From Dictyobacter aurantiacus (lineage in GTDB: Bacteria; Chloroflexota; Ktedonobacteria; Ktedonobacterales; Ktedonobacteraceae): a DNA stretch of 64,000 bases. The stretch lies in NCBI RefSeq assembly GCF_003967515.1, contig NZ_BIFQ01000002.1:1550001-1614000 (forward strand), in the 5' to 3' direction. How positions within the stretch are numbered: position 1 is the first letter of the stretch; each line of letters begins with the position of its first letter. Below are positions 1 to 25,514 of this stretch, piece after piece. The notes beneath the pieces were generated by a model. That model was not told the origin of the DNA, did not search any database, and was given only the letters and a program-made list of their open reading frames with translations. A program made the translations under genes and the position numbers.

Positions 1-3000
1 ACAAAAGAGAACAAGAGTCTCGCAATTTCTGAATTGCGAGCCTATTTACAAACCCAGCTTCCGGAATATATGATTCCCAGTTTCTTTGAAATAATAAAAG
101 AATTACCACTGACTCCAAGCGGCAAAGTAGATCGCAAACAATTACCCACCCCTATCTCAAAATATGAAGGAAAGGAAAAGGCTTATGTTGCTCCTCGTAC
201 CTCTATCGAGAAACACTTAGCCCACATTTGGTCTGAGGTCATAGGAGCCACTAATATCGGATTACATGATCATTTCTTAGAGTTGGGCGGCCATTCTTTG
301 CTCGGTGTTCAAGTTATCTCGCGATTGCGTGAAAGATTGGGAATCGCAGTTCCGCTCCGTATGGTATTTGAATATCCTATATTTGGTGCATTCTGTGATA
401 ATTTAGAAAATCTGTTCCTCAAGCAACAGGAACAACATGATAGTATATCCCCATCCCATATTGTCCAGCAACCAGATACGACCACAACGTTCCCACCCTC
501 ACCTCTGCAACATGGTTTATGGTTTTTAAATCAATTAGAACAAAATAGCGCCTTCTATAACATTTCGTTTCAACTCAAATTAAAAGGAAAAATCCGGATA
601 AAATGCCTTAAGCAGGCATTGCAGGAACTCATACATCGTCACAAAGTACTCCATACAGTCTTTATACAGCACGAAGGCCATCTTCAACAAGTTGTCGTTC
701 CGGAATTTCCAGTAGACTTGCCCATAATTGAAATACAAGGATCGACTCAAGCTGAACAGGACGATCGTTTCCTTCAAATCACCGAAGGTATAACTCATCT
801 ATCTTTTGATTTATCAAAGGGTCCACTTATAAAAGCCAACCTTCTACGAAGACAAACAGAAGAACATATTTTGCTTGTAACCATTCATCATATTGTGTTC
901 GATGGATGGTCTCAGGAGGTCTTCCTCCGTGAACTGAGCACCTTGTACACAGCCTTCCATGCAGGCCTTCCCTCTCCCCTTTCTCCCGTGACGTTACACT
1001 ATGCCGATTATGCCGTCTGGCAACGCCAACAAACCACCGAGTTTGCCCAGCAGCTGACCTATTGGAAAGAGCAGTTGGCCGGGGCACCTGCACTCCTTGA
1101 CCTACCAACCGATTTCCCTCGCCCCAGTCAGCAAACCTTTGTGGGAACCCGCTACCCGTTTACTATCTCAACCGATCAGGTCCAAAAGGTGCGAACCCTC
1201 AGTCATCATGAACACGTCACCACCTACATGATCTTGCTTGCTGTCTACCAGGTTCTCCTGGCTCGCTACAGTGGGCAAACGGACCTGGTCGTGGGCACTC
1301 CCATTGCCGGACGCACCCGAGTCGAGTTGGAGGAAATGCTTGGCTTCCTGGTCAATACTCTGGCCTTGCGCGTTTCCTTGGCGGCAAATCCCAGTTTCGC
1401 ACACCTGCTGCAGCAGGTACGAGAAGTGGCTCTGCAAGCCTATGCCCATCAAGACGTTCCCTTTGAACAAGTGGTGCAAGCCCTGCAACCAGAACGCACG
1501 TTGAGCCATTCTCCCATCTTTCAGGTCATGTTTAGCTTGCAGAACACCCCAGCACTCACCTTGAGCTTCCCAGCACTCACCTGTGAAATCCAACCTCTGG
1601 TGAGTCGGGTGGCTCAGTTTGACCTGACCATGGACCTGGTAGAGATCGAAGGCAGGATAGAGGGCGAGATCGAATATAATACCGATCTCTTTCGAGAAGA
1701 AACGATTGCGCGTCTGGTGACACATTATCTTCATCTGCTTGCTCAGTTGGTCGATGATCCCACCCAAGCGGTGTTCCGCGTGTCTTTGCTCACCGCCCAG
1801 GAGCGCCAGTTGCAACTGGTGACGTGGAACCAGACCGCGGCCCCATTTCCTCAGGATCGCTGTCTTCATGAGCTCTTCGAGGAGCAGGTTCAGAAAAGTC
1901 CACAGGCCCCGGCGGTCCTCTTTGAGGATACCCAGCTCAGCTACGAGGAGCTCAATGCCCGCGCCAACCAGCTTGCCCATGTCTTGCAGGGCTACGGAGT
2001 CACGCCAGATACGCTGGTGGGCTTATGCGTCGAGCGGTCGCTGGAAATGGTCGTGGGTATGCTTGGCATTCTCAAGGCAGGAGGTGCCTACGTCCCTCTT
2101 GATCCCGACTATCCCGCTGAACGCTTGAGGTACATGCTCACGAACACAGGGGTGAACGTCCTGCTGACGCAAGCGCACCTGCAAGACCGATTGCCCATGC
2201 ATCAGGCACGGGTCCTCTGCCTGGATGCAGATTGGTCTCAGATCGCGCAGGCTCCTTCGACCAATCTGAGCACGAGCGGCGTCCACCCCGCGCATCTGGC
2301 CTATGTCATCTACACCTCCGGCTCTACCGGTCTTCCCAAAGGCGTTATGGTTCCTCATCATGGCGTGATGAATGTTGCTCTTGCTCAAACAATACAATTC
2401 GGATTACAGGTGGGGGATCGGGTGCTGCAGGCTGCCTCTATCAGTTTTGATGCCGCAACATCTGAGATGCTGCTTGCCTGGGGGGCGGGCGCGACCCTCT
2501 GTCTGGTATCACGCGAGGTATTGTTGTCTGGACCTGGATTTCAACAGTACCTACAACAAACTGCGATTTCTATGGTTATTCTCACCCCATCGTTGCTCTC
2601 AACCCTCACAGTTGAAGCGTTGCCAGCACTGCATACCATCGCAGTAGCTGGTGAGGCCTGCTCATCAGAACTGGTTGAGCGATGGGCAGCAGGACGACGT
2701 TTTTTCAATCTCTATGGGCCAACCGAAGCCAGTATCTGGTCAACGGTCATGCGCTGTGAGGTGGGGGAAGGAAAACCGCTGATTGGGCGTCCCATCATAA
2801 ATACGCAGGTCTATATTCTGGATCAGCGGATGCAGCCAGTTCCTGTTGGTATACCAGGCGAACTGTACATTGGTGGTGTAGGAGTGACGCGCGGTTACCT
2901 CCAGCGGCCAGATATTACAGCTGATCGATTTGTGCCTCACCCTTTTAGCAATGAACCTGGAGTTCGGCTGTACAGGACAGGAGACGTTGTCAAATATCGA

Positions 3001-6000
3001 GCTACTGGCGAAATAGAGTATATAGGTCGAGTTGACCATCAGGTGAAGATACGAGGTCAACGGGTTGAACTGGGAGAGATTGAGGCAGTACTTCGTCTGC
3101 ATCCTGCAATACAGGAATGTGTCGTACTACTTCGTGAAGATATCCCAGGTGAAAAACATTTAGTAGCGTATGTGATCTTCATTCCCACGCAAGAGAGAAC
3201 ACAACTTGATCTACGTAACTACCTGAGTACCAAGCTAGCCTCTTACATGCTGCCAACATTTTTTGTCACGCTACCCACTCTGCCTCTCACCTCAAATGGA
3301 AAAATCAATAGGCAGGAATTACCCCCTCCAGAGATCACGGCCAGAAACGCTGCTGATATATTGCATACGCCCTTCACTCCTACCGAAGAGCTTCTTATCA
3401 CAATTTGGCAAAGTACCCTCAAACATGAACATATCAATACTACTGATAATTTCTTTGAAATTGGCGGCCATTCCTTACTTGCTACCCACCTCGTTGCACA
3501 AATACGACAAACCTTCCACGTCGAAATTCCGTTGCGACTCGTCTTTAATGCACCAGTACTTGCTGAATTAGCACATCATCTGGACGAGAAGATGCGGTTG
3601 ACCTTTGACTCCCTTCCTACAATTCAAGCACGCAAAGAACAGGAGCCTCCACCTCCACTTTCCTTTGGGCAAGAGCGACTATGGTTCTTGGACCACCTGG
3701 ACGAGAAGAACATCGCCTATCATATGCCACTTGGCATCCGCCTGCAAGGCGCCCTTGACCTCGTCGCACTCGAACACAGTCTCACTGAACTGGTTGCCCG
3801 CCACGCCATCTTGCGCACCACGCTGCGCATGCAAGATGGCCAGCCAGTCCAGTTCATTAGCCCTCAACAGCCAGTTTCCCTGCGCATACAGGATCTGACC
3901 ACCATCGTAGATGCACTACGCGAGGAGCATGCCCATGCGTTCCTCACTCAGGAAATCGAGCAGCCGTTCAATCTCGCACAAGGACCCCTTCTGAGACATC
4001 TCCTCCTGCGTTTATCTCCTCAGGAACATATTCTGGTGTTTACCTGGCACCACAGCATTAGCGATGGATGGTCTCGGGAGGTCTTTCTCCGTGAACTGAG
4101 CACCTTGTACACAGCCTTCCATGCAGGCCTTCCCTCTCCCCTTTCTCCCGTGACGTTACACTATGCCGATTATGCCGTCTGGCAACGCCAACAAACCACC
4201 GAGTTTGCCCAGCAGCTGACCTATTGGAAAGAGCAGTTGGCCGGGGCACCTGCACTCCTTGACCTACCAACCGATTTCCCTCGCCCCAGTCAGCAAACCT
4301 TTGTGGGAACCCGCTACCCGTTTACTATCTCAACCGATCAGGTCCAAAAGGTGCGAACCCTCAGTCATCGTGAACACGTCACCACCTACATGATCTTGCT
4401 TGCCGTCTACCAGGTTCTCCTGGCTCGCTACAGTGGGCAAACGGACCTGGTCGTGGGCACTCCCATTGCCGGACGCACCCGAGTTGAGTTGGAGGAAATG
4501 CTTGGCTTCCTGGTCAATACTCTGGCCTTGCGCGTCTCCTTGGCGGCAAATCCCAGTTTCGCACACCTGCTGCAGCAGGTACGAGAAGTGGCCCTGCAAG
4601 CCTATGCCCATCAAGACGTTCCCTTTGAACAAGTGGTGCAAGCCCTGCAACCAGAACGCACGTTGAGCCATTCTCCCATCTTTCAGGTCATGTTTAGCTT
4701 GCAGAACACCCCAGCACTCACCTTGAGCTTCCCAGCACTCACCTGTGAAATCCAACCTCTGGTGAGTCGGGTGGCTCAGTTTGACCTGACCATGGACCTG
4801 GTAGAGATCGAGGGCAGGATAGAGGGCGAGATCGAATATAATACCGATCTCTTTCGAGAAGAAACGATTGCGCGTCTGGTGACACATTATCTTCATCTGC
4901 TTGCTCAGTTGGTCGATGATCCCACCCAAGCGGTGTTCCGCGTGTCTTTGCTCACCGCCCAGGAGCGCCAGTTGCAACTGGTGACGTGGAACCAGACCGC
5001 GGCCCCATTTCCTCAGGATCGCTGTCTTCATGCGCTCTTCGAGGAGCAGGTTCAGAAAAGTCCACAGGCCCCGGCGGTCCTTTTTGAGGATACCCAGCTC
5101 AGCTACGAGGAGCTCAATGCCCGCGCCAACCAGCTTGCCCATGTCTTGCAGGGCTACGGAGTCACGCCAGATACGCTGGTGGGTTTATGCGTCGAGCGGT
5201 CGCTGGAAATGGTCGTGGGTATGCTTGGCATTCTCAAGGCAGGAGGTGCCTACGTCCCTCTTGATCCCGACTATCCCGCTGAACGCTTGAGGTACATGCT
5301 CACGAACACAGGGGTGAATGTCCTGCTGACGCAAGCGCACCTGCAAGACCGATTGCCCATGCATCAGGCACGGGTCCTCTGCCTGGATGCAGATTGGTCT
5401 CAGATCGCGCAGGCTCCTTCGACCAATCTGAGCACGAGCGGCGTCCACCCCGCGCATCTGGCCTATGTCATCTACACCTCCGGCTCTACCGGTCTTCCCA
5501 AAGGCGTTATGGTTCAGCATCGTGAGCTTGTTAATCTGTTGCTATCTTTTGCCCAAATTCTTCCTCTTTCAATAAAAGATACTTTTATAGCACTCACGAC
5601 CATTACATTTGATATTGCAGGGCTTGAAATTTTTCTTCCGTTGATCTCAGGTGCACGTATTGCTCTTGCAAATCAAGAGACGGCGAGAGATAGCCAGGCG
5701 CTTGCCAGAATTATCTCACGAACTCAGGCTACCGTTATGCAGGCAACGCCAGTAACATGGAAACTACTGCTAGCAAATGGGTGGGATGGGAATCCTGATT
5801 TGGTGGCTCTCTGTGGCGGTGAGACATTACCAAAAAATCTCGCAGATGAATTAAAAATGCGGGTGAAACTCCTTTGGAATGTATATGGTCCGACTGAGAC
5901 TACTATCTGGTCGTGTAGTTGTCATATTTCACCCGAAGTGAGCCATATTACTATCGGGTATCCTATAGCTAACACCCAGATATACATTCTTGATCAAAGG

Positions 6001-8217
6001 ATGCAGCCGGTGCCTGTAGGGGTTACTGGAGAACTGTACATTGGAGGAGCGGGGCTAGCACGGGGCTATCTGTATCGCCCAGATATCACAGCAGAGAAAT
6101 TTCTTCCCAACCCATTTAGTAAGAGTTCAGGGACACGACTCTATCGGACTGGTGATCTGGCGCGATATTGCTCTGATGGGGCAATTGAAATCCTGGGCCG
6201 AAACGATCAACAGGTGAAGCTGCGAGGCCACCGTATCGAACTAGGTGAAATTGAAGCCGCCTTGAATGAACATTCGGCTATTAAAGATAGTGTTGCAGTT
6301 CTGAGGGAGGGGATTTCAGGTGAGAAACAATTAGTGGCATACGTGACGCTCAATTCCGAACATATTGTCTCGCCTTCTGATCTGCGCAGTTATCTCAATA
6401 GCAAACTCCCACCACATATGCTTCCGGCTGCATTCGTACCTCTTCCAGCCTTACCACTTACAAGCAACGGTAAACTCGATCGTAAAGCACTTCCAATTCA
6501 TGCGATTGAAGACATAACTACTGCTTATGAAGCTGCTCACACCGATATCGAGGCGCTTTTAGTAACAGTTTGGGAAACTGTTTTGGAGCGAACCACCATC
6601 GGTATTCACGATAATTTCTTTGCATTAGGTGGAGATTCAATAAAAAGTATATCCGTGATCGTACAAGCTCGACAAAAGGGGCTCACAATCACTTCCAAAC
6701 AAATTTTTCAACATCAAACGATTGCCCAACTGGCTCGTGCTGTGCAGCCATTGCAACAAGATGTTGAAACCAGCAGAATCATAAGACCAACTCGCTTGAT
6801 GCCAATTCAACACTGGTTTTTTGAGCAACAGTTCTCAGATCTCCCTCATCACTACCAATCATCTACGCTACATTTACTTGGCGATGTCAATCTGAACGCA
6901 TTAAGACAATCTATAGAAGTACTACTTAATCACCATGATGCGCTGAGAACCCGTTTTATTCATAACGGTAATCAATGGGAAGCAAGTACACAAGCAACAA
7001 TTTCAATAGAGGCCTTTTGGGAAGAAGAAATCATTGATGAGTCAGATGCGTATAGGATATCAGAGATTGTAAGCAACATCGCCTATAGTTCTCACGCATC
7101 TTTCAATCTTGAGCAGGGCCATCTCCTCAGGGCCGTTGTTATTACTACCCCATCAATGAAAGATGGATATCTGGTTTTGATGATACATCAGCTAGTCATT
7201 GATGCCGTTTCATGGCAAATTCTCCTAGCTGATCTAGTCTTTGCATATGAACAGTTGGTAAGCGGTGAAATCCCACTTTTGCCATCACCCACGCTTCAAA
7301 TGCAACAATTAGCAGAAATATTAGTACACAAAGCAAGAGAACCAGAAACACTACGAGCTATTTCTTATTGGGAAGATCAAGCTAAACGCATGGTCAAATC
7401 TTTGCCATTTGTTGATCCACCAATGCTAGCATATAACCTAGACACGACAGTTGTATCAAAACGCCTACATCTCTCGCTAGAAGAGACCAGAGCATTAGTG
7501 GAGGTTGTTCCATCCGCCTATCACGCTCACATTAATGAGATATTATTGGCTGCACTCAGCAAAGCGTACACAGAATGGATTGGTACTTCACAAATTTTGT
7601 TTGACTTTGAACATCAGGGGCGCAATCTAGACGGACAAAATCTTGCACGCACAATTGGATGGTGTACAGTACTATTTCCGGTACTAATCGATTTAGCACT
7701 CCCTCCTCGCACCGACATTGTCGCGGTCGTGCGTTCTGTGAAAGAGCAAGTCAGGGTTGCAACTCAGCATGGACAGGCATACACGTTGCTAAAGTACCTT
7801 CATCCAGATAAAAATATTCAGGCGCGGCTGAATAGTATTCCCCAGGCGCCCATCAGGTTCAGCTTCATTGATAGCACCGGTAAGCAAGAGGCTAGCAGCA
7901 AAAGAGGGCATTTTTTCTCAATAGAACAGTCTCACCACCAATCCTTGTGTCTACAGACGGGAGGTGCGTATCTAATCAATATTTATTGTCAGATCAACCG
8001 CAGCCAATTCACCATTGATTTGTTCTATCACTCTAATTTAGAGGAACGCATGCACATTGATGACTTTGCCAATAGCTACATTACAGCGCTACGACAAATC
8101 ATTGCTGTATATCCGACAGCGCATACTCAGGGCCTTACTGCGACTGATTTTCCAGATGCTGGTCTTGATCAAAAACAACTTGATCGTTTGGTCAATCGCC
8201 TCAAAAAACCCAGATAA
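1..8217 (+). CDS. Non-ribosomal peptide synthetase, 5' partial
   Basis: Multimodular peptide synthetase whose frame runs open through base 1, so the start lies outside the window. Domain order by nucleotide: end of an adenylation (A) domain 1-170, carrier (PCP) 184-390 with phosphopantetheine Ser codon 295-297 (LGGHSL), condensation (C) 490-1770 with HHIVFDGWS, A 1837-3330, PCP 3367-3590, C 3647-4960 with HHSISDGWS, A 5000-6500, PCP 6535-6750 (LGGDSI, the form usual before epimerases), epimerization-like domain 6780-8100. Aligning pockets by eye to GrsA PheA gives DASLAALIWK for the first complete A domain (no confident substrate) and DILQLGVIWK for the second, close to the known glycine code. 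The epimerase motif is HQLVIDAVSW rather than HHxxxDGVSW and the EGHGRE motif reads EHQGRN, so it is probably inactive. Thirty-six bases separate it from the next synthetase gene. Confidence 0.96.
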   Translation, partial: TKENKSLAISELRAYLQTQLPEYMIPSFFEIIKELPLTPSGKVDRKQLPTPISKYEGKEKAYVAPRTSIEKHLAHIWSEVIGATNIGLHDHFLELGGHSLLGVQVISRLRERLGIAVPLRMVFEYPIFGAFCDNLENLFLKQQEQHDSISPSHIVQQPDTTTTFPPSPLQHGLWFLNQLEQNSAFYNISFQLKLKGKIRIKCLKQALQELIHRHKVLHTVFIQHEGHLQQVVVPEFPVDLPIIEIQGSTQAEQDDRFLQITEGITHLSFDLSKGPLIKANLLRRQTEEHILLVTIHHIVFDGWSQEVFLRELSTLYTAFHAGLPSPLSPVTLHYADYAVWQRQQTTEFAQQLTYWKEQLAGAPALLDLPTDFPRPSQQTFVGTRYPFTISTDQVQKVRTLSHHEHVTTYMILLAVYQVLLARYSGQTDLVVGTPIAGRTRVELEEMLGFLVNTLALRVSLAANPSFAHLLQQVREVALQAYAHQDVPFEQVVQALQPERTLSHSPIFQVMFSLQNTPALTLSFPALTCEIQPLVSRVAQFDLTMDLVEIEGRIEGEIEYNTDLFREETIARLVTHYLHLLAQLVDDPTQAVFRVSLLTAQERQLQLVTWNQTAAPFPQDRCLHELFEEQVQKSPQAPAVLFEDTQLSYEELNARANQLAHVLQGYGVTPDTLVGLCVERSLEMVVGMLGILKAGGAYVPLDPDYPAERLRYMLTNTGVNVLLTQAHLQDRLPMHQARVLCLDADWSQIAQAPSTNLSTSGVHPAHLAYVIYTSGSTGLPKGVMVPHHGVMNVALAQTIQFGLQVGDRVLQAASISFDAATSEMLLAWGAGATLCLVSREVLLSGPGFQQYLQQTAISMVILTPSLLSTLTVEALPALHTIAVAGEACSSELVERWAAGRRFFNLYGPTEASIWSTVMRCEVGEGKPLIGRPIINTQVYILDQRMQPVPVGIPGELYIGGVGVTRGYLQRPDITADRFVPHPFSNEPGVRLYRTGDVVKYRATGEIEYIGRVDHQVKIRGQRVELGEIEAVLRLHPAIQECVVLLREDIPGEKHLVAYVIFIPTQERTQLDLRNYLSTKLASYMLPTFFVTLPTLPLTSNGKINRQELPPPEITARNAADILHTPFTPTEELLITIWQSTLKHEHINTTDNFFEIGGHSLLATHLVAQIRQTFHVEIPLRLVFNAPVLAELAHHLDEKMRLTFDSLPTIQARKEQEPPPPLSFGQERLWFLDHLDEKNIAYHMPLGIRLQGALDLVALEHSLTELVARHAILRTTLRMQDGQPVQFISPQQPVSLRIQDLTTIVDALREEHAHAFLTQEIEQPFNLAQGPLLRHLLLRLSPQEHILVFTWHHSISDGWSREVFLRELSTLYTAFHAGLPSPLSPVTLHYADYAVWQRQQTTEFAQQLTYWKEQLAGAPALLDLPTDFPRPSQQTFVGTRYPFTISTDQVQKVRTLSHREHVTTYMILLAVYQVLLARYSGQTDLVVGTPIAGRTRVELEEMLGFLVNTLALRVSLAANPSFAHLLQQVREVALQAYAHQDVPFEQVVQALQPERTLSHSPIFQVMFSLQNTPALTLSFPALTCEIQPLVSRVAQFDLTMDLVEIEGRIEGEIEYNTDLFREETIARLVTHYLHLLAQLVDDPTQAVFRVSLLTAQERQLQLVTWNQTAAPFPQDRCLHALFEEQVQKSPQAPAVLFEDTQLSYEELNARANQLAHVLQGYGVTPDTLVGLCVERSLEMVVGMLGILKAGGAYVPLDPDYPAERLRYMLTNTGVNVLLTQAHLQDRLPMHQARVLCLDADWSQIAQAPSTNLSTSGVHPAHLAYVIYTSGSTGLPKGVMVQHRELVNLLLSFAQILPLSIKDTFIALTTITFDIAGLEIFLPLISGARIALANQETARDSQALARIISRTQATVMQATPVTWKLLLANGWDGNPDLVALCGGETLPKNLADELKMRVKLLWNVYGPTETTIWSCSCHISPEVSHITIGYPIANTQIYILDQRMQPVPVGVTGELYIGGAGLARGYLYRPDITAEKFLPNPFSKSSGTRLYRTGDLARYCSDGAIEILGRNDQQVKLRGHRIELGEIEAALNEHSAIKDSVAVLREGISGEKQLVAYVTLNSEHIVSPSDLRSYLNSKLPPHMLPAAFVPLPALPLTSNGKLDRKALPIHAIEDITTAYEAAHTDIEALLVTVWETVLERTTIGIHDNFFALGGDSIKSISVIVQARQKGLTITSKQIFQHQTIAQLARAVQPLQQDVETSRIIRPTRLMPIQHWFFEQQFSDLPHHYQSSTLHLLGDVNLNALRQSIEVLLNHHDALRTRFIHNGNQWEASTQATISIEAFWEEEIIDESDAYRISEIVSNIAYSSHASFNLEQGHLLRAVVITTPSMKDGYLVLMIHQLVIDAVSWQILLADLVFAYEQLVSGEIPLLPSPTLQMQQLAEILVHKAREPETLRAISYWEDQAKRMVKSLPFVDPPMLAYNLDTTVVSKRLHLSLEETRALVEVVPSAYHAHINEILLAALSKAYTEWIGTSQILFDFEHQGRNLDGQNLARTIGWCTVLFPVLIDLALPPRTDIVAVVRSVKEQVRVATQHGQAYTLLKYLHPDKNIQARLNSIPQAPIRFSFIDSTGKQEASSKRGHFFSIEQSHHQSLCLQTGGAYLINIYCQINRSQFTIDLFYHSNLEERMHIDDFANSYITALRQIIAVYPTAHTQGLTATDFPDAGLDQKQLDRLVNRLKKPR
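900..2353 (+). repeat. NRPS recombination block, copy 1
   Basis: About 1454 bases covering the C-domain HHxxxDG motif to the A3 motif (TSGSTGLPKGVMV). Near-identical and without length change to 4062-5515 and 11892-13345. From 1778 to 3121 it is also near-identical to 17379-18722. The block is visibly richer in G and C than the flanking NRPS sequence. Confidence 0.92.
3647..5519 (+). repeat. NRPS recombination block, copy 2
   Basis: 1873 bases from the start of the condensation domain (SFGQERLWFLD) to just past the A3 motif of the glycine-type adenylation domain. Equal in length and near-identical to 11477-13349; identity stops abruptly at both ends. Confidence 0.93.
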
Positions 8218-8253
8218 TTTTAGAAGTCAGAGTAAAGGGAGGGATATAGTAGT

Positions 8254-11200
8254 ATGAGCATCAATGCTATTGAAGATATTTATGAATTGTCGCCAATGCA
8301 ACAGGGACTCCTCTTTCACACGGCATTGTCACCGGAATCATCTGCATACTTTGTACAAGCTGTTTATCACATCACTGGTCATTTTAATGAAACCATATTT
8401 CGCAAGGCGTGGGAGATTGTTATTGCACGTTACCCCATTTTTCGCACCATATTTCATTGGGAAGAGATAGAAAAACCTGTACAAGTTGTCTGTAGCGCCT
8501 TTCCTCTTCCGTGGACTCAACTTAATTGGAGTAACCTTTCACCTAACGAATACCAAAAGCATATGGAGACGTGGTTAATAGAAGATCGCAAAAGAGGATT
8601 TGCCCTCACGGAGGAGCCCGCTTTTCGCCTGACCTTGATTTCTTGTGCCCCGCGGTCATATTATTTTATTTTGTCAAATCATCATTTGCTTATTGATGGA
8701 TGGTCTAATGCGCTTTTGATGCATGAAATCGAGGAAACATATTCTTCTCTAAAGAAGGGGCAACACCCGCTTGCTCCCGCACGACGCCCATATCGTCACT
8801 ACATCCACTGGCTACATCAGCAGGATCACGAAATCGCTGCACACTTTTGGCAGAACTATCTCAAAGATGTACATCACCCTACATTACCTCTCTCGGATCA
8901 TGCAGTAAATGCGGAGCTAGCAGGTACATTTGGGCAACAAGCAGTCAGTTTCAATGCTGTTGAAACGAAAATGCTACATCACCAGGCAAGTCAAATGGGT
9001 GTCACACTCAACACTTTAGTTCAGGCTGCTTGGGGAATGCTTCTGGCTACTCAAAATAGTGAAACTGATGTCGTCTTTGGAACAATCGTCTCCGGGCGCT
9101 CTCCTATGCTTGATGGCTCTGAGTCAATGATTGGCCTTTTTATTAATGCATTACCACTACGCCTACGTCTTATACCAAATATGCGAGTATCTGACTGGCT
9201 CACCGATATACAAAATGCTCATGTAGAAGCTCGCCAGTATGAGTTTTGCTCACTAGTTGACATCCATGGTTGGAGCCATATTCCACGTGAAGTACCACTA
9301 TTTAGTAGTGCAGTAGTGTTTGAAAACTATCCCTTCCTCGCAACAAAACAGTCTTCCTCAGAAAGTTTGTGTTGGAAGAGAGTCCATGTATTTGAGAAGA
9401 CAACATATCCACTCGAATTGATTGTGGAACCAGGACCAGAATTGAGCCTTTTTATTAGCTTTGACCAGGGAAATATTTCGACAACTCGGGCGCAGCAACT
9501 CAGCAAGCACTTACGTCATCTAATAACCGTTCTAGCTTACAATTCGCACAAGCAACTGCAAGAGATTATGACCACCGCTCCAGATGAGTATGAACGTCAG
9601 ATCCATGGATGGAATCAAACATCAGTCACTTATGACCTGGACCTATCAATTACTGCACGCGTGCACAAGCATGCACACACACAGCCAGAAGCGCCCGCGG
9701 TCATTCTTGATAAGGAAGTAACAAATTATGCGACACTAGATCTTCAATCCCGCTCATTTGCGAAAATTCTACAAACTCGATATGGTATAGGGCCGGAGAA
9801 ACGCGTTGGCATTATGATGGGTCGCTCGTCAGAAACTGTTACTACCATCTTAGCTGTATATGGTGCAGGCGGAACCTTTGTACCACTAGATCCGATGGCA
9901 CCACCAGAAAGACTCAAGTTTATTATCCAAGACGCTGCTCTTGACTGTCTTGTTCTGATGGATCGTCAGAATGTGCTCGTTTCAATTGACCATATACCAG
10001 TCATTGATTACCCAGAGATTATCGCTGAATTAACATATGCCGAAGCTATTAATCCAAGTACGCCTTACGAGGGAAATATTGCTGCATATATTATTTATAC
10101 TTCAGGTTCAACTGGACGGCCTAAAGGTGTTGTTATTTCGCGCAATGCTTTTCTCAATCATGCAATGGCAATGCGTGATCGGCTTCATTTGAATAAGCAA
10201 GATCGTGTAATGCATTTTACATCATTAATCCATGATCTTGCGCTAGAAGAAATCATTCCCATAATGATCAGTGGTGGTGCAGTTGCAATTTGGAATGAAC
10301 AGTTTGCTCCTTCACCCGAGCAGTTAACTGCCTTTTTAGATACGCATCAAGTATCTATCCTGGACCTTTCCGCTTCCTACTGGCATGAATGGGTTACATG
10401 GCTTCAAGCAGGTATGGTAAGTGTCCCCAAGACATTACGTCTGGTTGCCACGGGCAGTGAACGAGTATTAGCAACAAAGGTCGCAATTTGGGAAGCGCTA
10501 ACCGAAAGCCAGATTATCTGGTGTAACGCATATGGTCCAACAGAGGCAACAATTACCTCGATACTCTATTCTTCTGAGCAAAAAACACATTTGATCTACC
10601 AGGATGATACGCTTGTTCCTATCGGAAAACCTATTGCCAATATGCGCGCATATGTGCTTGACAGTATGATGAAGCCTGTTCCAATAGGAACATCTGGAGA
10701 ACTTTATCTGGGAGGGATCGGGGTAGCCCGTGGCTACTTGAATCTTCCCGAGATAACAGCAGATCTATTTCTTCCCGATCCATTCAGCTCTGAAGCAGGA
10801 GCTAGAATGTATCGCACAGGAGACATTGTTAGATATCAGGCTGATGGTATGCTCGAATTTTTAGGGCGCCGCGACACGCAAATCAAAGTGCGTGGCTTGC
10901 GAACAGAACTGAGTGAAATTGAAACTCTTATCAGCAAGTATGTTGCCGTCGCTGAAGTAGTCGTTTTGCCACATGCCAACAAATATGGCGAAACTTCTAT
11001 TATTGCATGGTATATGGTTTCGAATGAAAAATTTGGTGACATTCGCGAAACACTTTTCCAATATCTTGAAGGATATCTTTCTGCCAGTTTACTCGCAAGT
11101 ATTCATCTTGTACAGATGGAAGCATTACCTCGCTTAGCGTCTGGAAAAATTGACCACCAGGCATTACCAGTGCAGATTGCTGATGCCACTGCTTATGTTG

Positions 11201-14200
11201 CACCGAAACCTGGAACAGAGCAAATAATTGCCGATATCTGGCAACAAGTTCTGCATAATGATCATATTAGTGCAACCAACAACTTTTTTCGAATTGGTGG
11301 TCATTCATTGTTAGCCATGCAGGCTATCGTTCGCATACGAGAACAATTTAATGTCGAGCTTCCTCTCCGCGTGATCTATGATAAACCGAGATTAACAGAT
11401 CTAGCACAATATATCGATGTGATACTGAGCCAAACAACGAAAGAATTGTCAGAGATAAAGTCAGAAGAATATGTCACTCCACCTCCACTTTCCTTTGGGC
11501 AAGAGCGACTATGGTTCTTGGACCACCTGGACGAGAAGAACATCGCCTATCATATGCCACTTGGCATCCGCCTGCAAGGCGCCCTTGACCTCGTCGCACT
11601 CGAACACAGTCTCACTGAACTGGTTGCCCGCCACGCCATCTTGCGCACCACGCTGCGCATGCAAGATGGCCAGCCAGTCCAGTTCATTAGCCCTCAACAG
11701 CCAGTTTCCCTGCGCATACAGGATCTGACCACCATCGTAGATGCACTACGCGAGGAGCATGTCCATGCGTTCCTCACTCAGGAAATCGAGCAGCCGTTCA
11801 ATCTCGCACAAGGACCCCTTCTGAGACATCTCCTCCTGCGTTTATCTCCTCAGGAACATATTCTAATGTTTACCTGGCACCACAGCATTAGCGATGGATG
11901 GTCTCAGGAGGTCTTCCTCCGTGAACTGAGCGCCTTGTACACAGCCTTCCATGCAGGCCTTCCCTCTCCCCTTTCTCCCGTTAAGCTCCACTATGCCGAT
12001 TATGCCGTCTGGCAACGCCAACAAACCACCGAGTTTGCCCAGCAGCTGACCTATTGGAAAGAGCAGTTGGCCGGGGCACCTGCACTTCTTGACCTACCAA
12101 CCGATTTCCCTCGCCCCGGTCAGCAAACCTTTGTGGGAACCCGCTACCCGTTTACTATCTCAACCGATCAGGTCCAAAAGGTGCGAACCCTCAGTCATCG
12201 TGAACACGTCACCACCTACATGATCTTGCTTGCCGTCTACCAGGTTCTCCTGGCTCGCTACAGTGGGCAAATGGACCTGGTCGTGGGCACTCCCATTGCC
12301 GGACGCACCCGAGTCGAGTTGGAGGAAATGCTTGGCTTCCTGGTCAATACTCTGGCCTTGCGCGTCTCCTTGGCGGCAAATCCCAGTTTCGCACACCTGC
12401 TGCAGCAGGTACGAGAAGTGGCTCTGCAAGCCTATGCCCATCAAGACGTTCCCTTTGAACAAGTGGTGCAAGCCCTGCAACCAGAACGCACGTTGAGCCA
12501 TTCTCCCATCTTTCAGGTCATGTTTAGCTTGCAGAACACCCCAGCACTCACCTTGAGCTTCCCAGCACTCACCTGTGAAATCCAACCTCTGGTGAGTCGG
12601 GTGGCTCAGTTTGACCTGACCATGGACCTGGTAGAGATCGAGGGCAGGATAGAGGGCGAGATCGAATATAATACCGATCTCTTTCGAGAAGAAACGATTG
12701 CGCGTCTGGTGACACATTATCTTCATCTGCTTGCTCAGTTGGTCGATGATCCCACCCAAGCGGTGTTCCGCGTGTCTTTGCTCACCGCCCAGGAGCGCCA
12801 GTTGCAACTGGTGACGTGGAACCAGACCGCGGCCCCATTTCCTCAGGATCGCTGTCTTCATGAACTCTTCGAGGAGCAGGTTCAGAAAAGTCCACAGGCC
12901 CCGGCGGTCCTTTTTGAGGATACCCAGCTCAGCTACGAGGAGCTCAATGCCCGCGCCAACCAGCTTGCCCATGTCTTGCAGGGCTACGGAGTCACGCCAG
13001 ATACGCTGGTGGGCTTATGCGTCGAGCGGTCGCTGGAAATGGTCGTGGGTATGCTTGGCATTCTCAAGGCAGGAGGTGCCTACGTCCCTCTTGATCCCGA
13101 CTATCCCGCTGAACGCTTGAAGTACATGCTCACGAACACAGGGGTGAACGTCCTGCTGACGCAAGCGCACCTGCAAGACCGATTGCCCATGCATCAGGCA
13201 CGGGTCCTCTGCCTGGATGCAGATTGGTCTCAGATCGCGCAGGCTCCTTCGACCAATCTGAGCACGAGCGGCGTCCACCCCGCGCATCTGGCCTATGTCA
13301 TCTACACCTCCGGCTCTACCGGTCTTCCCAAAGGCGTTATGGTTCAGCACAGTGGGTTATGCAATCGACTGCAGTGGATGCAAGACACATACCATCTGAC
13401 GAGCAAAGATCGAGTACTACAAAAGACACCGTTTAATTTCGATGTTTCTGTCTGGGAATTGTATTGGCCACTTCTCTATGGAGCAGTATTAGTAATAGGC
13501 CGCCCCAATGGGCATCGTGACCCTGGCTACTTGCATGACACAATAGTAGCACAGCAAATTACAATTATACATTTCGTTCCTTCTATGTTGCAGGTCTTCC
13601 TTGAAGAGGTGAGCAGTGGGAGATATTCGGCGCTTCGACTGGTAATTTGTAGCGGAGAGGCACTAGGCTATGATCTCCAAACACGTTTTTTTGCGAAATT
13701 CCCAGATATTGAATTGCATAACTTGTATGGTCCAACTGAAGCATCAATAGACGTAACTTACTGGCCGTGTGAGCGGGAAGAAGTTCGGCAGACAGTCCCC
13801 ATTGGTCGACCGATCGCTAATATGCACACCTACATTCTCGATGCTCATTTGCAACCAGTGCCAATTGGAGTTCAGGGAAATCTCTATTTAAGCGGAATTG
13901 GACTCGCACGAGGATATTTCCAACGCCCGGAAACAACTGCCGAGAAATTTATCCCCCATCCTTTTAGCTCTATTCCTGGAGAGCGGCTCTACCGCACAGG
14001 GGATCTGGCTCGATACACTTCTGATGGGTTGATTGAATACTTGGGCCGTGATGATCATCAAGTGAAAGTACGAGGATTTCGCATTGAGTTAGGAGAGATT
14101 GAGGCTATCCTTAGTCAGCATCCAAATGTGCATGAATGTGTCGTGCTTGCCCGAGAAGATACTCCAGGTGAAAAACGATTAGTAGCTTATGTAGTGCTTC

Positions 14201-16068
14201 TTCCAGAATGCATAAAGCCAAACCCTGACTTACGTAGCTACTTAAGCTCCAAACTTCCCGCGTACATGCTACCTGCATTATTTGTCATACTCCCCCTCTT
14301 TCCACTCACAAGTAATGGCAAACTTGATCGTAATGCTTTGCCATCACCAGATCCGTCTTGCTCACAAAATGAAGCAAATTTTGTCGAACCGTTGAGTCAA
14401 ACCGAGAAACAACTCGCTGCAATATGGTCTCAAGTCCTGCATCTCAATAAAGTTAGCATCCATGACAATTTCTTTCAAATAGGCGGCGATTCAATTTTAA
14501 GCATTTTGATTGTTGCCAAGGCTCGCGAACAAGGGATACATTTAACGCCAACCCATATTTTTCAATATCAGACCATTGCTGAGTTAGCGTCTATCGCTGG
14601 AACGACAGCATTCATACAACCTGATCAGGACGAAATCCGAGGTGACGTGCCTCTAACGCCAATTCAGCGATGGTTCTTTGAGCAGCAGTTTGTTGAGATG
14701 CATCACTGGAATCAGGCAAATCTATTCGAAATCCGTGGGCCACTCGATAATCAGGTACTTCAACAAGCTCTTCTACACATAGCTAAACATCATGATGCAC
14801 TGCGTATGGTGTATCGATATGATGGGCAGAAGTGGAAACAGATGATTTCGCCCATTCCCTCCCATGTTCCACTTGAACAGATCGATCTTACTCATATTTC
14901 TGCTGACCAACAACTGGTGGCGATAGAAGCAGAAGCCACGCGTATCCAAAGCAGTATCGATCTCACTTCCGGTTTATTGATGCGCTGTGCTCTCTTTACG
15001 TTAGGGGTACACCGTCCTCAGCAATTACTCATCGTCGTCCATCATTTAGTAATTGATATTGTATCTTGGCATATCCTCTTGGAGGATCTCACTAAAGTTT
15101 GCCTGGCATTGCAAAATAATCAACCAGCTCAACTTCCTTTAAAAACCACATCATTCCAACAGTGGTCACGAGCTTTACAAACCTATGCCAATAACAATCA
15201 GGTACGCAACGAACTTGCATACTGGGTGCAAGAATTGCAACAGCCAGTTACTCCCCTACCTGTCGATCAGAACATTGGCGAAAATCTGATAGGTTCGACT
15301 ATGGCGGTTGTTCGCACCCTTACTAGTGAGGAAACACAAACACTTTTACAGATAGTTCCCAAAGTTTGTTCTACTCATATTAATGATGTCTTACTCGCCG
15401 TACTGATCGATGCTTACGCCCGCTGGACAGGCAAACAAGAAATGCTCGTCGATTTAGAAGGACACGGGCGCGAAGAAGTTATCTCAGGAGTCGACCTCAC
15501 GCGGACAGTGGGATGGTTTACAACGATTACTCCAATACGTCTGAAACGATCAATGAGTGGCGACCTAATTGATACAGTACAAGCAGTGAAAACTCAACTG
15601 CGGCACGTATCACATGGAGGCATCCACTACGGACTCTTGCGTTACCTGACATCTGATGCAACAATTGCAGCCCAGTTAACCCAAATTCCGCCAGCTGAAA
15701 TAAGCTTTAATTATATGGGACGCGACTTCCACGTAGCATCACATGAGAACCTTTTTACCCTCTCTCACTATTCACCAGGGAAGAGCCAAAGCGATAAAGC
15801 TCATAGTCCATATCTTTTAGACATTAGCGTAACCATCGAAGAAGAACAATTTCGCATCTTCTGGAACTATAGCACGAATCGCTATCATAACCTGACAATC
15901 GAGCAACTAGCCGATAATTACATGTTTGTGCTGCGGGAACTACTCAGAAGGTGTGAGGTGCAACATACTCAAACACTGCTTCGCTTCGCCCTTCCGGGTT
16001 TTGATGTGGATCAGAATCTATTAGATAGTCTACTCTCCCATCTTGATGAGTCTGAAGGAGACAAATAA
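8254..16068 (+). CDS. Non-ribosomal peptide synthetase, two modules with active-looking epimerase
   Basis: Complete 2604-residue synthetase subunit. Start supported by AAAGGGAGGG about 11 bases upstream. Domain order by nucleotide: N-terminal DCL-type condensation domain 8266-9600 (HHLLIDGWS), adenylation 9640-11170, PCP 11190-11400, condensation 11477-12770 (HHSISDGWS), adenylation 12829-14345, PCP 14370-14580 (GGDSI), epimerization 14640-15990. The first pocket reads about DLEDVTAITK; the acidic residues hint at a basic substrate but this is weak. The second reads DVWHISLIDK, identical to the established serine code. The epimerase keeps HHLVIDIVSW, EGHGRE and RTVGWF, so D-Ser is expected. 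A DCL-type domain at the start fits acceptance of a chain from a module ending in an epimerase, although the upstream epimerase looks dead. The end is 1 base from the next start. Confidence 0.97.
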   Translation: MSINAIEDIYELSPMQQGLLFHTALSPESSAYFVQAVYHITGHFNETIFRKAWEIVIARYPIFRTIFHWEEIEKPVQVVCSAFPLPWTQLNWSNLSPNEYQKHMETWLIEDRKRGFALTEEPAFRLTLISCAPRSYYFILSNHHLLIDGWSNALLMHEIEETYSSLKKGQHPLAPARRPYRHYIHWLHQQDHEIAAHFWQNYLKDVHHPTLPLSDHAVNAELAGTFGQQAVSFNAVETKMLHHQASQMGVTLNTLVQAAWGMLLATQNSETDVVFGTIVSGRSPMLDGSESMIGLFINALPLRLRLIPNMRVSDWLTDIQNAHVEARQYEFCSLVDIHGWSHIPREVPLFSSAVVFENYPFLATKQSSSESLCWKRVHVFEKTTYPLELIVEPGPELSLFISFDQGNISTTRAQQLSKHLRHLITVLAYNSHKQLQEIMTTAPDEYERQIHGWNQTSVTYDLDLSITARVHKHAHTQPEAPAVILDKEVTNYATLDLQSRSFAKILQTRYGIGPEKRVGIMMGRSSETVTTILAVYGAGGTFVPLDPMAPPERLKFIIQDAALDCLVLMDRQNVLVSIDHIPVIDYPEIIAELTYAEAINPSTPYEGNIAAYIIYTSGSTGRPKGVVISRNAFLNHAMAMRDRLHLNKQDRVMHFTSLIHDLALEEIIPIMISGGAVAIWNEQFAPSPEQLTAFLDTHQVSILDLSASYWHEWVTWLQAGMVSVPKTLRLVATGSERVLATKVAIWEALTESQIIWCNAYGPTEATITSILYSSEQKTHLIYQDDTLVPIGKPIANMRAYVLDSMMKPVPIGTSGELYLGGIGVARGYLNLPEITADLFLPDPFSSEAGARMYRTGDIVRYQADGMLEFLGRRDTQIKVRGLRTELSEIETLISKYVAVAEVVVLPHANKYGETSIIAWYMVSNEKFGDIRETLFQYLEGYLSASLLASIHLVQMEALPRLASGKIDHQALPVQIADATAYVAPKPGTEQIIADIWQQVLHNDHISATNNFFRIGGHSLLAMQAIVRIREQFNVELPLRVIYDKPRLTDLAQYIDVILSQTTKELSEIKSEEYVTPPPLSFGQERLWFLDHLDEKNIAYHMPLGIRLQGALDLVALEHSLTELVARHAILRTTLRMQDGQPVQFISPQQPVSLRIQDLTTIVDALREEHVHAFLTQEIEQPFNLAQGPLLRHLLLRLSPQEHILMFTWHHSISDGWSQEVFLRELSALYTAFHAGLPSPLSPVKLHYADYAVWQRQQTTEFAQQLTYWKEQLAGAPALLDLPTDFPRPGQQTFVGTRYPFTISTDQVQKVRTLSHREHVTTYMILLAVYQVLLARYSGQMDLVVGTPIAGRTRVELEEMLGFLVNTLALRVSLAANPSFAHLLQQVREVALQAYAHQDVPFEQVVQALQPERTLSHSPIFQVMFSLQNTPALTLSFPALTCEIQPLVSRVAQFDLTMDLVEIEGRIEGEIEYNTDLFREETIARLVTHYLHLLAQLVDDPTQAVFRVSLLTAQERQLQLVTWNQTAAPFPQDRCLHELFEEQVQKSPQAPAVLFEDTQLSYEELNARANQLAHVLQGYGVTPDTLVGLCVERSLEMVVGMLGILKAGGAYVPLDPDYPAERLKYMLTNTGVNVLLTQAHLQDRLPMHQARVLCLDADWSQIAQAPSTNLSTSGVHPAHLAYVIYTSGSTGLPKGVMVQHSGLCNRLQWMQDTYHLTSKDRVLQKTPFNFDVSVWELYWPLLYGAVLVIGRPNGHRDPGYLHDTIVAQQITIIHFVPSMLQVFLEEVSSGRYSALRLVICSGEALGYDLQTRFFAKFPDIELHNLYGPTEASIDVTYWPCEREEVRQTVPIGRPIANMHTYILDAHLQPVPIGVQGNLYLSGIGLARGYFQRPETTAEKFIPHPFSSIPGERLYRTGDLARYTSDGLIEYLGRDDHQVKVRGFRIELGEIEAILSQHPNVHECVVLAREDTPGEKRLVAYVVLLPECIKPNPDLRSYLSSKLPAYMLPALFVILPLFPLTSNGKLDRNALPSPDPSCSQNEANFVEPLSQTEKQLAAIWSQVLHLNKVSIHDNFFQIGGDSILSILIVAKAREQGIHLTPTHIFQYQTIAELASIAGTTAFIQPDQDEIRGDVPLTPIQRWFFEQQFVEMHHWNQANLFEIRGPLDNQVLQQALLHIAKHHDALRMVYRYDGQKWKQMISPIPSHVPLEQIDLTHISADQQLVAIEAEATRIQSSIDLTSGLLMRCALFTLGVHRPQQLLIVVHHLVIDIVSWHILLEDLTKVCLALQNNQPAQLPLKTTSFQQWSRALQTYANNNQVRNELAYWVQELQQPVTPLPVDQNIGENLIGSTMAVVRTLTSEETQTLLQIVPKVCSTHINDVLLAVLIDAYARWTGKQEMLVDLEGHGREEVISGVDLTRTVGWFTTITPIRLKRSMSGDLIDTVQAVKTQLRHVSHGGIHYGLLRYLTSDATIAAQLTQIPPAEISFNYMGRDFHVASHENLFTLSHYSPGKSQSDKAHSPYLLDISVTIEEEQFRIFWNYSTNRYHNLTIEQLADNYMFVLRELLRRCEVQHTQTLLRFALPGFDVDQNLLDSLLSHLDESEGDK
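11477..13349 (+). repeat. NRPS recombination block, copy 3
   Basis: Partner of 3647-5519 in the second synthetase gene, with only scattered substitutions. Beyond the A3 motif the two copies diverge at once into unrelated substrate-binding halves (glycine-like versus serine codes). Confidence 0.93.
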
Positions 16069-16069
16069 C

Positions 16070-19000
16070 ATGATACAGAATGCCATTGAGAATGCGTATC
16101 CACTTGCTTCAATGCAAGAGGGCATACTATTTGAAACTCAATATGTTGACGATCCCGAACTCTATTTTGTGCAAGTCCGATATTGCATCCAAGGTTCCCT
16201 TAATGTTGAGGCATTTAAGAAGTCGTGGCAGTCAATCATTCAACGACATCCTATTTTGCGTACACTGTTTGTCTGGAAAGAGGTAGAGATACCAATCCAA
16301 ATTGTACGTCAACAGATGAATTTACCCTGGTCTGAAGTGGATTGGCAAACCGCATCATCAGAAGAACAAGAACTGCGATTTGAGCAACTTTGTGCTGGCG
16401 AACGAGCACGTGGGTTTAACCTGGAGAAATCTCCACTTATACGCTTTACGCTTGTTCAATTGGCTCCTAATAAGCACTATTTCCTCTGGAACTTTCATCA
16501 TATATTGTTAGATGGATGGTCGGTGCCAATTATCCTAGATGAGGTGTTAATCACCTATTATGCTTTATGTGCAGGAAAAGAACCAATGCTTCCCTCGCTA
16601 AGACCATACAAAGACTATATAGATTGGGTACAGCAGCAGGAGGATACAAAGGCAGAACAATTTTGGAGAGACACGTTACAGGGTTTTAACCAACCGACAA
16701 GATTAGCAATCGAGCATACTCATGTGGCATTAGGGCAATCACGTACTATTGCACATAAATTTCTTTGCTTACCAGCTCCTTTTTCTGCTTCTATTCAGCA
16801 ACTAGCACATCAAAATAAGCTAACGATAAATACTATTATGCAAGGTGCCTGGGCCTTGCTTCTTTCCGTCTATAGTGGCGATGACGATGTGGTATTTGGA
16901 GCGACTGTTTCCGGCCGCTCCCTCCCCTTTCCTGGCATTGAGTCTATGGTTGGACTCTTTATCAATGCATTGCCGATACGGGTTAAGATTGACCCTCACA
17001 CTTCACTCTTATCCTGGTTGCAGGCAATTCAAAGTCAACAGATTCAAAATAGACAATATGAATCTAGCCCTCTCGTAAAAATTCAAAAATGGAGTGAAAT
17101 TCCAAAGGATCAAGCGCTTTTTAGATCCTTGTTCGTTTTTGAGAATTATCCATCCATAGCAACAGTGAGTACGACACAAGATACCTTGGAGTTGGTACCC
17201 ATGGCCTCCATCGAGCAAACAAATTATCCTCTAACACTTACGATCACTCCCGGAGAAGAAATTGGCATTCATCTTAGTTATCAAAATCACCTCTTTGACA
17301 CATCAAGCATTCTACGATTGCTCGAACATTTCCAAATAGCCCTTGAAACAATTGTTTCCAAGCCAAATCAAAAAGTAAGCGTGTCTTTGCTCACCGCCCA
17401 GGAGCGCCAGTTGCAACTGGTGACGTGGAACCGGACCGCGGCCCCATTTCCTCAGGATCGCTGTCTTCATGAGCTCTTTGAGGAGCAGGTTCAGAAAAGT
17501 CCACAGGCCCCGGCGGTCCTCTTTGAGGATACCCAGATCAGCTACGAGGAGCTCAATGCCCGCGCCAACCAGCTTGCCCATGTCTTGCAGGGCTACGGAG
17601 TCACACCAGATACGCTGGTGGGCTTATGCGTCGAGCGGTCGCTGGAAATGGTCGTGGGTATGCTTGGCATTCTCAAGGCAGGAGGTGCCTACGTCCCTCT
17701 TGATCCCGACTATCCCGCTGAACGCTTGAAGTACATGCTCACGAACACAGGGGTGAACGTCCTGCTGACGCAAGCGCACCTGCAAGACCGATTGCCCATG
17801 CATCAGGCACGGGTCCTCTGCCTGGATGCAGATTGGTCTCAGATCGCGCAGGCTCCTTCGACCAATCTGAGCACGAGCGGCGTCCACCCCGCGCATCTGG
17901 CCTATGTCATCTACACCTCCGGCTCTACCGGTCTTCCCAAGGGCGTTATGGTTCCTCATCGTGGCGCGATGAATGTTGCCCTTGCTCAAACGATACAATT
18001 CGGATTACAGGTGGGGGATCGGGTGCTGCAGGCTGCCTCTATCAGTTTTGATGCCGCAACATCTGAGATGCTGCTTGCCTGGGGGGCGGGCGCGACCCTC
18101 TGTCTGGTATCACGCGAGGTATTGTTGTCTGGACCTGGATTTCAGCAGTACCTACAACAAACTGCGATTTCTATGGTTATTCTCACCCCATCGTTGCTCT
18201 CAACCCTCACAGTTGAAGCGTTGCCAGCACTGCATACCATCGCAGTAGCTGGTGAGGCCTGCTCATCAGAACTGGTTGAGCGATGGGCAGCAGGACGACG
18301 TTTTTTCAATCTCTATGGGCCAACTGAAGCCAGTATCTGGTCAACGGTCATGCGCTGTGAGGTGGGGGAAGGAAAACCGCTGATTGGGCGTCCCATCATA
18401 AATACGCAGGTCTATATTCTGGATCAGCGGATGCAGCCAGTTCCTGTTGGTATACCAGGCGAACTGTACATTGGTGGTGTAGGAGTGACGCGCGGTTACC
18501 TCCAGCGGCCAGATATTACAGCTGATCGATTTGTGCCTCACCCTTTTAGCAATGAACCTGGAGCTCGGCTGTACAGGACAGGAGACGTTGTCGAATATCG
18601 AGCTACTGGCGAAATAGCGTATATAGGTCGAGTTGACCACCAGGTGAAGATACGAGGTCAACGGGTTGAACTGGGAGAGATTGAGGCAGTACTTCGTCTG
18701 CATCCTGCAATACAGGAATGTGCGGTACTGGCTCGGGAAGATACTCCAGGAGAGAAACGATTGACAGCATATATCGTAATCACGGCCGAGTACACATCTA
18801 AAACCATTGACTTACCAGCTTACTTGAGCGCTAAACTTCCAAAGCATATGCTTCCATCAGCATATGTTACTTTACCTCTTTTGCCACTTACAAATAATGG
18901 TAAGCTTGACAGGAAAGCATTGCCAATACCAGATACGCGCAGCAACAGTTCAGGTAAACCATATGCGGCCCCAAGAACTCCGACTGAGCAAAAACTAGTG

Positions 19001-24503: not shown

Positions 24504-25514
24504 ATGAAGCATCGCATGAATATTGCTGAAAGCAGCATTCTTTCAGCCGTCCAAGAGTATTTCTCTCTCCATTTGCAATTTCTGGAGTTCCTCCCTGTGG
24601 GTGAAGGAGCCTGGGTGTACAAAGGACACGATGAGAGTCAGAGCTTATGGATAGTGAAGCTTTCCCGTCTCAATACGCCCACTGTCGCTCGTGTAACCTC
24701 GTATCTTCACGATGAGCTTGGTCTTTCTTTTGTGATCGGTCCCGTTCTTCCTCTCGATCAAAGGGCGATCCCAAGGGTACATGGATACAATCTTAGTCTG
24801 TATCCCTTTCTTGAAGGCAAAACCCTGAGCTATGATAGCCTCAACGAAGAACACCAGGCCGAGATTGCTCAGTACCTGCGGAGCATGCATGATGCCAAAC
24901 TGCCACAGCCCATCAGAGCACTGCTTCCGAGAGAAGCCTTTGACAAGTTTCAAGCATCTGCGAGAAGCCTGGTGAGAAAGGCAAGAGAGTATATCGGCAA
25001 CGATGCCCTCTTGGAGCGCTTGCGAGATATTGTGATGTCACAATGGGACGTGATAGATCAAACCATTGAAAATGGGTATCGACTGAGTCAATATTGCAAA
25101 CAACATGCCTATGAGTTGGTGATCTGTCATGCAGATATCCACCCTTTCAATATCATACAAACAGCAACGACCCTCATCATGATTGATTGGGACGGCATCA
25201 TGCTTGCTCCCAGAGAACGAGATCTCATGTTTTACCGTCAGGAAATGAACGCGGAAGATTCTGACTTTCACCGAGCCTATGGCCTTGATTATCACGTCGA
25301 TGCTTATCTCATGAGCTACTACAATTATGAATGGGTCTTACAGGAGTACACGGACTATATAGGGCGGCTCTTTGATATGCAGTTAGGTGAAGAGGCGCGC
25401 GCCCATGCCCTTGATGAATTTCATGCACTTTTTGGCTCTCAACAAGAGTTGGGTGGTGTGGTGAAAGAGGCACTCTGCTCACCTCTGCCGGATGCAGTTG
25501 GTTACTGTTTCTGA
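24504..25514 (+). CDS. Aminoglycoside-type phosphotransferase (APH(9)-like)
   Basis: 336-residue protein-kinase-like phosphotransferase. The catalytic Brenner motif is visible as CHADIHPFNI (His, Asp and Asn in place), followed by the metal-binding IDWDGI. The N-lobe shows a nucleotide-binding glycine loop (VGEGAWVYKG) and an IVKLS lysine strand. The length matches spectinomycin phosphotransferase-type enzymes, which is the closest match I recognise, but choline-kinase-like relatives cannot be excluded. The 3' end overlaps the convergent methyltransferase gene by 36 bases. It is one of several antibiotic-modifying-type genes between 24 and 35 kb. Confidence 0.8.
   Translation: MKHRMNIAESSILSAVQEYFSLHLQFLEFLPVGEGAWVYKGHDESQSLWIVKLSRLNTPTVARVTSYLHDELGLSFVIGPVLPLDQRAIPRVHGYNLSLYPFLEGKTLSYDSLNEEHQAEIAQYLRSMHDAKLPQPIRALLPREAFDKFQASARSLVRKAREYIGNDALLERLRDIVMSQWDVIDQTIENGYRLSQYCKQHAYELVICHADIHPFNIIQTATTLIMIDWDGIMLAPRERDLMFYRQEMNAEDSDFHRAYGLDYHVDAYLMSYYNYEWVLQEYTDYIGRLFDMQLGEEARAHALDEFHALFGSQQELGGVVKEALCSPLPDAVGYCF

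Follow-up and report, generated by a model that had tools for sequence, protein, structure and literature searches.

The window analysed here – 64 kb, positions 1,550,001–1,614,000 of the secondary replicon (2.75 Mb) in the soil bacterium Dictyobacter aurantiacus S27 – belongs to an assembly (GCF_003967515.1) of 8,881,661 bases in two contigs (6,133,338 and 2,748,323 bases), the smaller of which is linear and has been called chromid-like (PMC13289182). It contains three adjoining NRPS genes that together encode six modules, M1 to M6 (Table 1); Pfam (Condensation, AMP-binding, PP-binding) places C, A and T in order inside one reading frame, the organisation of a modular type I NRPS. The first C domain of gene 1 is without its N-lobe, the HHxxxDG motif included, and no remnant was found within 3.8 kb upstream: a truncated cluster or an unusual starter may account for this. 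A Pfam search found no thioesterase or other recognised release domain across the three genes; a thioesterase is not present in every NRPS. The line closes at 19202–20551 with a degenerate E-like domain (motifs HVLVADLEST and TTHGRV) that no thioesterase follows, and the genes that come next encode an MFS transporter and a methyltransferase. Also near the cluster are an APH-type phosphotransferase and an aminoglycoside 2''-adenylyltransferase-like protein (24504–25514, 30391–30906). Two IS605 OrfB/TnpB-like genes lie downstream (27647–29242, 32316–33443), the first with two segments (27574–27933 and 28745–28983) that show ~68% DNA identity to 59285–59644 and 60472–60710, and upstream of the cluster a short ORF (positions 13139–13609 of locus L009) has, by eye, the look of a transposase helix-turn-helix.

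Table 1. Coordinates of the NRPS genes, near-identical tracts and associated features within the window
Feature	Position	Strand	Basis or remark
NRPS gene 1, dC-A1-T-C-A2-T-C-A3-T-E	1..8217	+	start 2,243 bp upstream of window
NRPS gene 2, C-A4-T-C-A5-T-E	8254..16068	+	domain search
NRPS gene 3, C-A6-T-E, degenerate E, no thioesterase	16043..20551	+	domain search
Tract 1, M3 copy: whole C and A-domain front to A3	3647..5519	+	98.93% to 11477–13349
Tract 1, M5 copy: whole C and A-domain front to A3	11477..13349	+	self-alignment
Tract 2, M2: HHxxxDG motif of C to A3	900..2353	+	~99% to M3 and M5
Tract 3, M2 copy: A core with pocket, C-A linker to past A8	1778..3121	+	98.8% to 17379–18722
Tract 3, M6 copy: A core with pocket	17379..18722	+	self-alignment
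A3 motif YTSGSTGLPKGV, M3	5473..5508	+	divergence starts at most ~10 bp after motif
M3 pocket half (A4–A8), glycine-type DILQLGVIWK	5520..6255	+	code alignment
M5 pocket half (A4–A8), serine-type DVWHISLIDK	13350..14100 (right end approximate)	+	code alignment
E domain behind glycine module, degenerate HQLVIDAVSW, EHQGRN	6784..8217	+	TIGR01720 71.0 bits, cut-off 74.2
E domain behind serine module, intact HHLVIDIVSW, EGHGRE	14644..16068	+	TIGR01720 98 bits

Three tracts explain all of the near-identity in the cluster. The initial annotation had described two blocks of equal length, now tract 1, as nearly identical, and self-alignment bears this out: the M3 and M5 copies span 1,873 bp with 20 mismatches and no gaps. 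Its further observation, that a block in M2 stops at the same point, also holds, with 98.98% identity to M3 (900–2362 against 4062–5524) and 98.97% to M5 (900–2353 against 11892–13345), M3 and M5 running on together for one codon more. What had been missed was a fourth copy, in M6, and with it the pocket tract that M2 and M6 have in common (1778–3157 against 17379–18758, 98.1%), which continues through the pocket to past A8 such that the whole A core is common to the two modules. The 1,873-bp front of M3 and M5 is thus present over 1,454 bp in M2 and 576 bp in M6, the latter being the first 576 bp of the M6 copy of tract 3 and the portion of the front common to all four modules.

The right-hand ends of tracts 1 and 2 are abrupt. 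All four modules encode YTSGSTGLPKGVMV identically at the codon level; M3 and M5 have one further codon (CAG) in common and then diverge. The same break follows the A3 motif in M2 (2311–2346) and M5 (13303–13338), and beyond it in-register identity falls from 98–100% to 30–50% inside ~100 bp. Codon mapping and pocket codes together substantiate the claim that divergence begins straight after GLPKGVMVQH and leads into glycine-like and serine pockets. In module model coordinates the tracts begin at the start of the C domain (13), at HHxxxDG (151) and in the C-A linker (444), and end at A3 (636–639) or past A8 (896).

Might such tracts reflect nothing more than ordinary conservation or convergence of C domains and A-domain fronts, with no recent copying? 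Both segments do contain conserved motifs. Yet synonymous sites within the tracts are 97–98% identical, which refutes this explanation; moreover, the same C and A-front segments reach at most ~68% protein identity to anything surveyed outside the cluster, and identity is lost within a few codons. We give conservation practically no credence. The arrangement – near-identity confined to an internal tract, with divergence to either side – is that of intragenomic gene conversion, and a GENECONV-like permutation, a recombination analysis of the kind the initial annotation had proposed, returned a top shared M3/M5 fragment with a score of 1101, whereas 1,000 shuffles never exceeded 52; control pairs involving M4 were at chance level. 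Trees built on either side of A3 tell the same story. The N-halves of M2, M3, M5 and M6 form one clade (0.997) whose next neighbour is a module of the same genome, and the pocket halves of M3 and M5 fall in glycine and serine clades drawn from several genomes. Discordance of front and pocket trees across A3 shows recombination, though not its direction. That recombination took place among the cluster's own modules is beyond doubt, and there is strong support for an A3 breakpoint, immediately ahead of the specificity half, whether by gene conversion or by recombination of another form.

Repeats of 0.6–1.9 kb are difficult for short reads, and the method by which strain S27 was sequenced was not found in the published descriptions searched; collapsed or mis-joined repeats must therefore be weighed. 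Assembly collapse is nonetheless a poor explanation, because M3 and M5 differ at 20 dispersed sites with a mostly synonymous bias, because reading frames are open throughout, and because, however the flanks are re-paired, one front still meets at least three pockets. The assembly comprises two contigs, and comparable tracts occur in many other genomes; an artefact is, in our judgement, very improbable. A pN/pS of 0.11–0.34 (pS about 0.022–0.025) indicates purifying selection on the tract copies; taken with open frames and intact motifs, this ratio indicates that selection acts on the chimeric modules. Divergence is alike in all tracts and hence the order in which they arose cannot be read from it.

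The pocket codes come from 240 aligned A domains, and the substrate names that follow are our assumption, taken from the codes and from general knowledge of NRPS codes. The A domain of M1 reads DVQ-MAQVVK (one position in a gap) and clusters with proline-like codes; those of M2 and M6 have the same code, DASIAALIWK, which we refer to as pocket X; that of M4 reads DLEDAGAITK, clusters with DxENxGxxTK codes and perhaps takes a basic residue. With the glycine-type code of M3 and the serine-type code of M5 (Table 1), a plausible order for the predicted peptide is proline-like, X, Gly, basic, D-Ser, X.

A critical issue is which half of the module moved. The initial annotation had offered natural pocket swapping or gene conversion, and its breakpoint at A3 is upheld by codons, trees and permutation; the pocket-swapping component fares less well. 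M3 and M5 share with mcyB-type pocket swaps a left-flank breakpoint with near-identity and discordant trees, but near-identity is not regained past the pocket: beyond A3 the two modules are 38% identical over ~890 residues (A6–A8 73%, T 49%). Given that M3 and M5 never rejoin, one event per pair is enough if fronts were copied, as against copying followed by overwriting to the end of the gene.

The E domains provide a second line of evidence. Both motifs of a functional E domain (HHxxxDxxSW, EGHGRE) are present in the E domain of gene 2 and are not intact in those of genes 1 and 3. The E domain behind the glycine module is the sole one among 68 E domains to lack the second His of HHxxxDxxSW, and its EGHGRE motif is also lost; behind a glycine-type module an E domain has no possible stereochemical role. 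By a rough estimate its 20 motif residues show ~7 changes against ~0.5 expected under neutrality, the expectation being derived from the tract pS of about 0.022. Because this decay exceeds what the age of the tract would predict, the glycine pocket is probably older than the tract, and M3 was probably already a glycine module before copying took place.

We consider it likely that the cluster is a mosaic whose modules exchanged DNA with one another by homologous recombination (gene conversion), with fronts copied and pockets resident. According to this proposal the C domain and A-domain front were copied between existing modules (tracts 1 and 2) and the pockets left in place; before these events M3 and M5 would already have had glycine and serine pockets followed by their own T and E domains. 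Tract 3, the only one to copy a pocket, would have duplicated a specificity in M2 and M6, and the tract 1 and 2 events probably left the product unchanged. DNA encoding conserved motifs (the T-C linker, HHxxxDG, the C-A linker, A3, A8–A10) may supply endpoints at which exchange does no damage, and the near-identical copies so produced would keep the modules recombining. Movement of the front is how the data are most simply read, on the basis of parsimony and one decayed E domain.

The tract ends themselves tell against front-copying. Since M3 and M5 remain identical one codon past the point at which M2 departs, two events must have broken at the same place, give or take a codon. Import of the pocket or rear half, the pocket swap of the initial annotation, is the opposing account. 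On this view duplication of a single module (C, A front, pocket X) came first; the glycine and serine pockets of M3 and M5 arrived afterwards, joined at A3 and bringing all downstream sequence with them. A breakpoint at A3 matches published pocket swaps (PMC8097286, PMC7486941), front and pocket X occur together in M2 and M6, and the M3 and M5 pockets have relatives elsewhere: among the surveyed genomes the closest pockets are 54% identical for the glycine pocket and 67% for the serine pocket, and the nearest surveyed relative of the latter belongs to a different cluster of this genome. Even the E domain may be accommodated, in that the entire rear half, from glycine pocket through T to the decayed E, might have arrived in a single piece; unless the E travelled along in this way, its decay places the glycine pocket before the tract. 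Import further demands two events per module instead of one, and the failure to regain identity past the pocket is unlike the four parallels found outside this cluster (see below). We regard import as a possible, though less probable, history. An orthologous cluster that would settle direction was not found: the top DNA hit beyond the genome itself reaches 71% over 320 bp, the best protein match in GTDB genomes, from which records of the window's own genome were possibly left out, is 53%, and module 4 finds at most a 39% match in 47 genomes of the class.

The distribution of C domains among the tracts is a further point in favour of the mosaic account. Within NCBIfam PRK05691, the part that matches the C domains of M2 and M3 differs from the part that matches those of M4 and M6, which come after E domains. 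Tracts that carry a C domain link only M2, M3 and M5, none of which is behind an E; M6, behind an active-type E, received the A core alone. C domains are viewed as stereochemical gatekeepers (PMC8097286), and the pattern, drawn from four modules only, fits such a role.

Surveys of other clusters place these junctions in context. Ktedonobacteria clusters, this one included, yielded 68 within-cluster near-identical tracts. Among 4,340 within-genome module pairs from eight related genomes the commonest pattern was a copied whole A core (19 pairs); in 13 pairs pocket and A6–A8 were common and the front was not, at the 93% level. The pattern that defines the present cluster – front at least 90% identical, pocket below 75% – was found in five pairs, every one of them from this cluster. 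In other phyla (78 loci), 4 of 290 pairs had a common front and differing pockets, these being from Mastigocoleus, a Nostocales strain, Moorena and Massilia, and codon mapping places their breaks at A3, less sharply in the Moorena pair, which is only ~80–90% identical before A3. Adjacent modules of Massilia sp. BJB1822 (locus L098) come close to the situation described here, with protein identities of 95–100% in C, 100% in the A front and 23% in the pocket, and a break directly after PKGVM; unlike M3 and M5, they regain ~91% identity in A6–A8. In Mastigocoleus testarum (locus L034) the break is directly after PKGV, but identity returns fully past the pocket (96–100%), a textbook pocket swap; in the other three pairs it returns to ~80–93%.

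A3 as a general breakpoint hotspot was considered and found no support in the sample: outside the window 4 of 114 tract ends fall there, against an expectation of 4.0. Peaks outside the window lie instead at the C-A linker and at A10-T, and none of the 114 ends falls at model positions 640–760, the pocket, where ~13 would be expected were ends uniform. For these data, A3 is more aptly described as the near border of a breakpoint-free stretch than as a general hotspot.

Recombination of this type has several precedents. For C-A-T modules of Pseudomonas, Bacillus and Streptomyces, hotspots at the C-A linker, at A2–A4 and from A5 onward have been described (Calcott 2020, PMC7486941). Tract ends of the present cluster at the linker and at A3 agree with these; its further ends at the C start and HHxxxDG, with the C domain travelling alongside the A front, do not. 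As the work of Fewer 2007 and Meyer 2016 is recounted in PMC8097286, an A3–A9 segment with its pocket moved between microcystin McyB and McyC and the product changed. The two cases are alike in that modules of a single cluster recombined with A3 as the left boundary; they differ in what is common, here the part before A3, with pockets that differ. Wollamide and desotamide (PMC9205934) similarly involve intragenomic recombination inside A domains after duplication. There a whole gene was duplicated and a glycine pocket came from another locus; here, in contrast, no pocket donor is seen and it is the front half that is common. Elsewhere in the survey, two genomes of one genus (G015 and G016; loci L153–L154 and L127) carry a 20-kb NRPS region at 96% identity, and these orthologues could serve to study within-cluster conversions.

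The A3 breakpoint is already published, and the present cluster is mechanistically ordinary: a very clean case of known NRPS recombination mosaics. Its junctions are young (~2% synonymous divergence), lie within one cluster, are in frame, and set one front before three pockets. As naturally selected fusion points they show engineers where A domains accept a cut, namely directly after PKGVMV. We take the end of this motif to correspond to about residues 202–204 of GrsA PheA, adjoining K205, the point that Crusemann and colleagues reportedly used.

More tentatively, the front half (C and the N subdomain of the A domain) might itself be a homogenised, moving unit, its standard forms kept alike through conversion, with pockets, T and E domains fixed – a suggestion that we consider less likely than not. 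If true, such a front would be the mirror image of the pocket swap, and C domains could spread with the product unchanged. Should the front, and not the pocket, have moved, such mosaics would need a test of direction before being read as evidence of a change in product, and a simple one is at hand in whether or not the 3′ side rejoins and in the state of the E domain.
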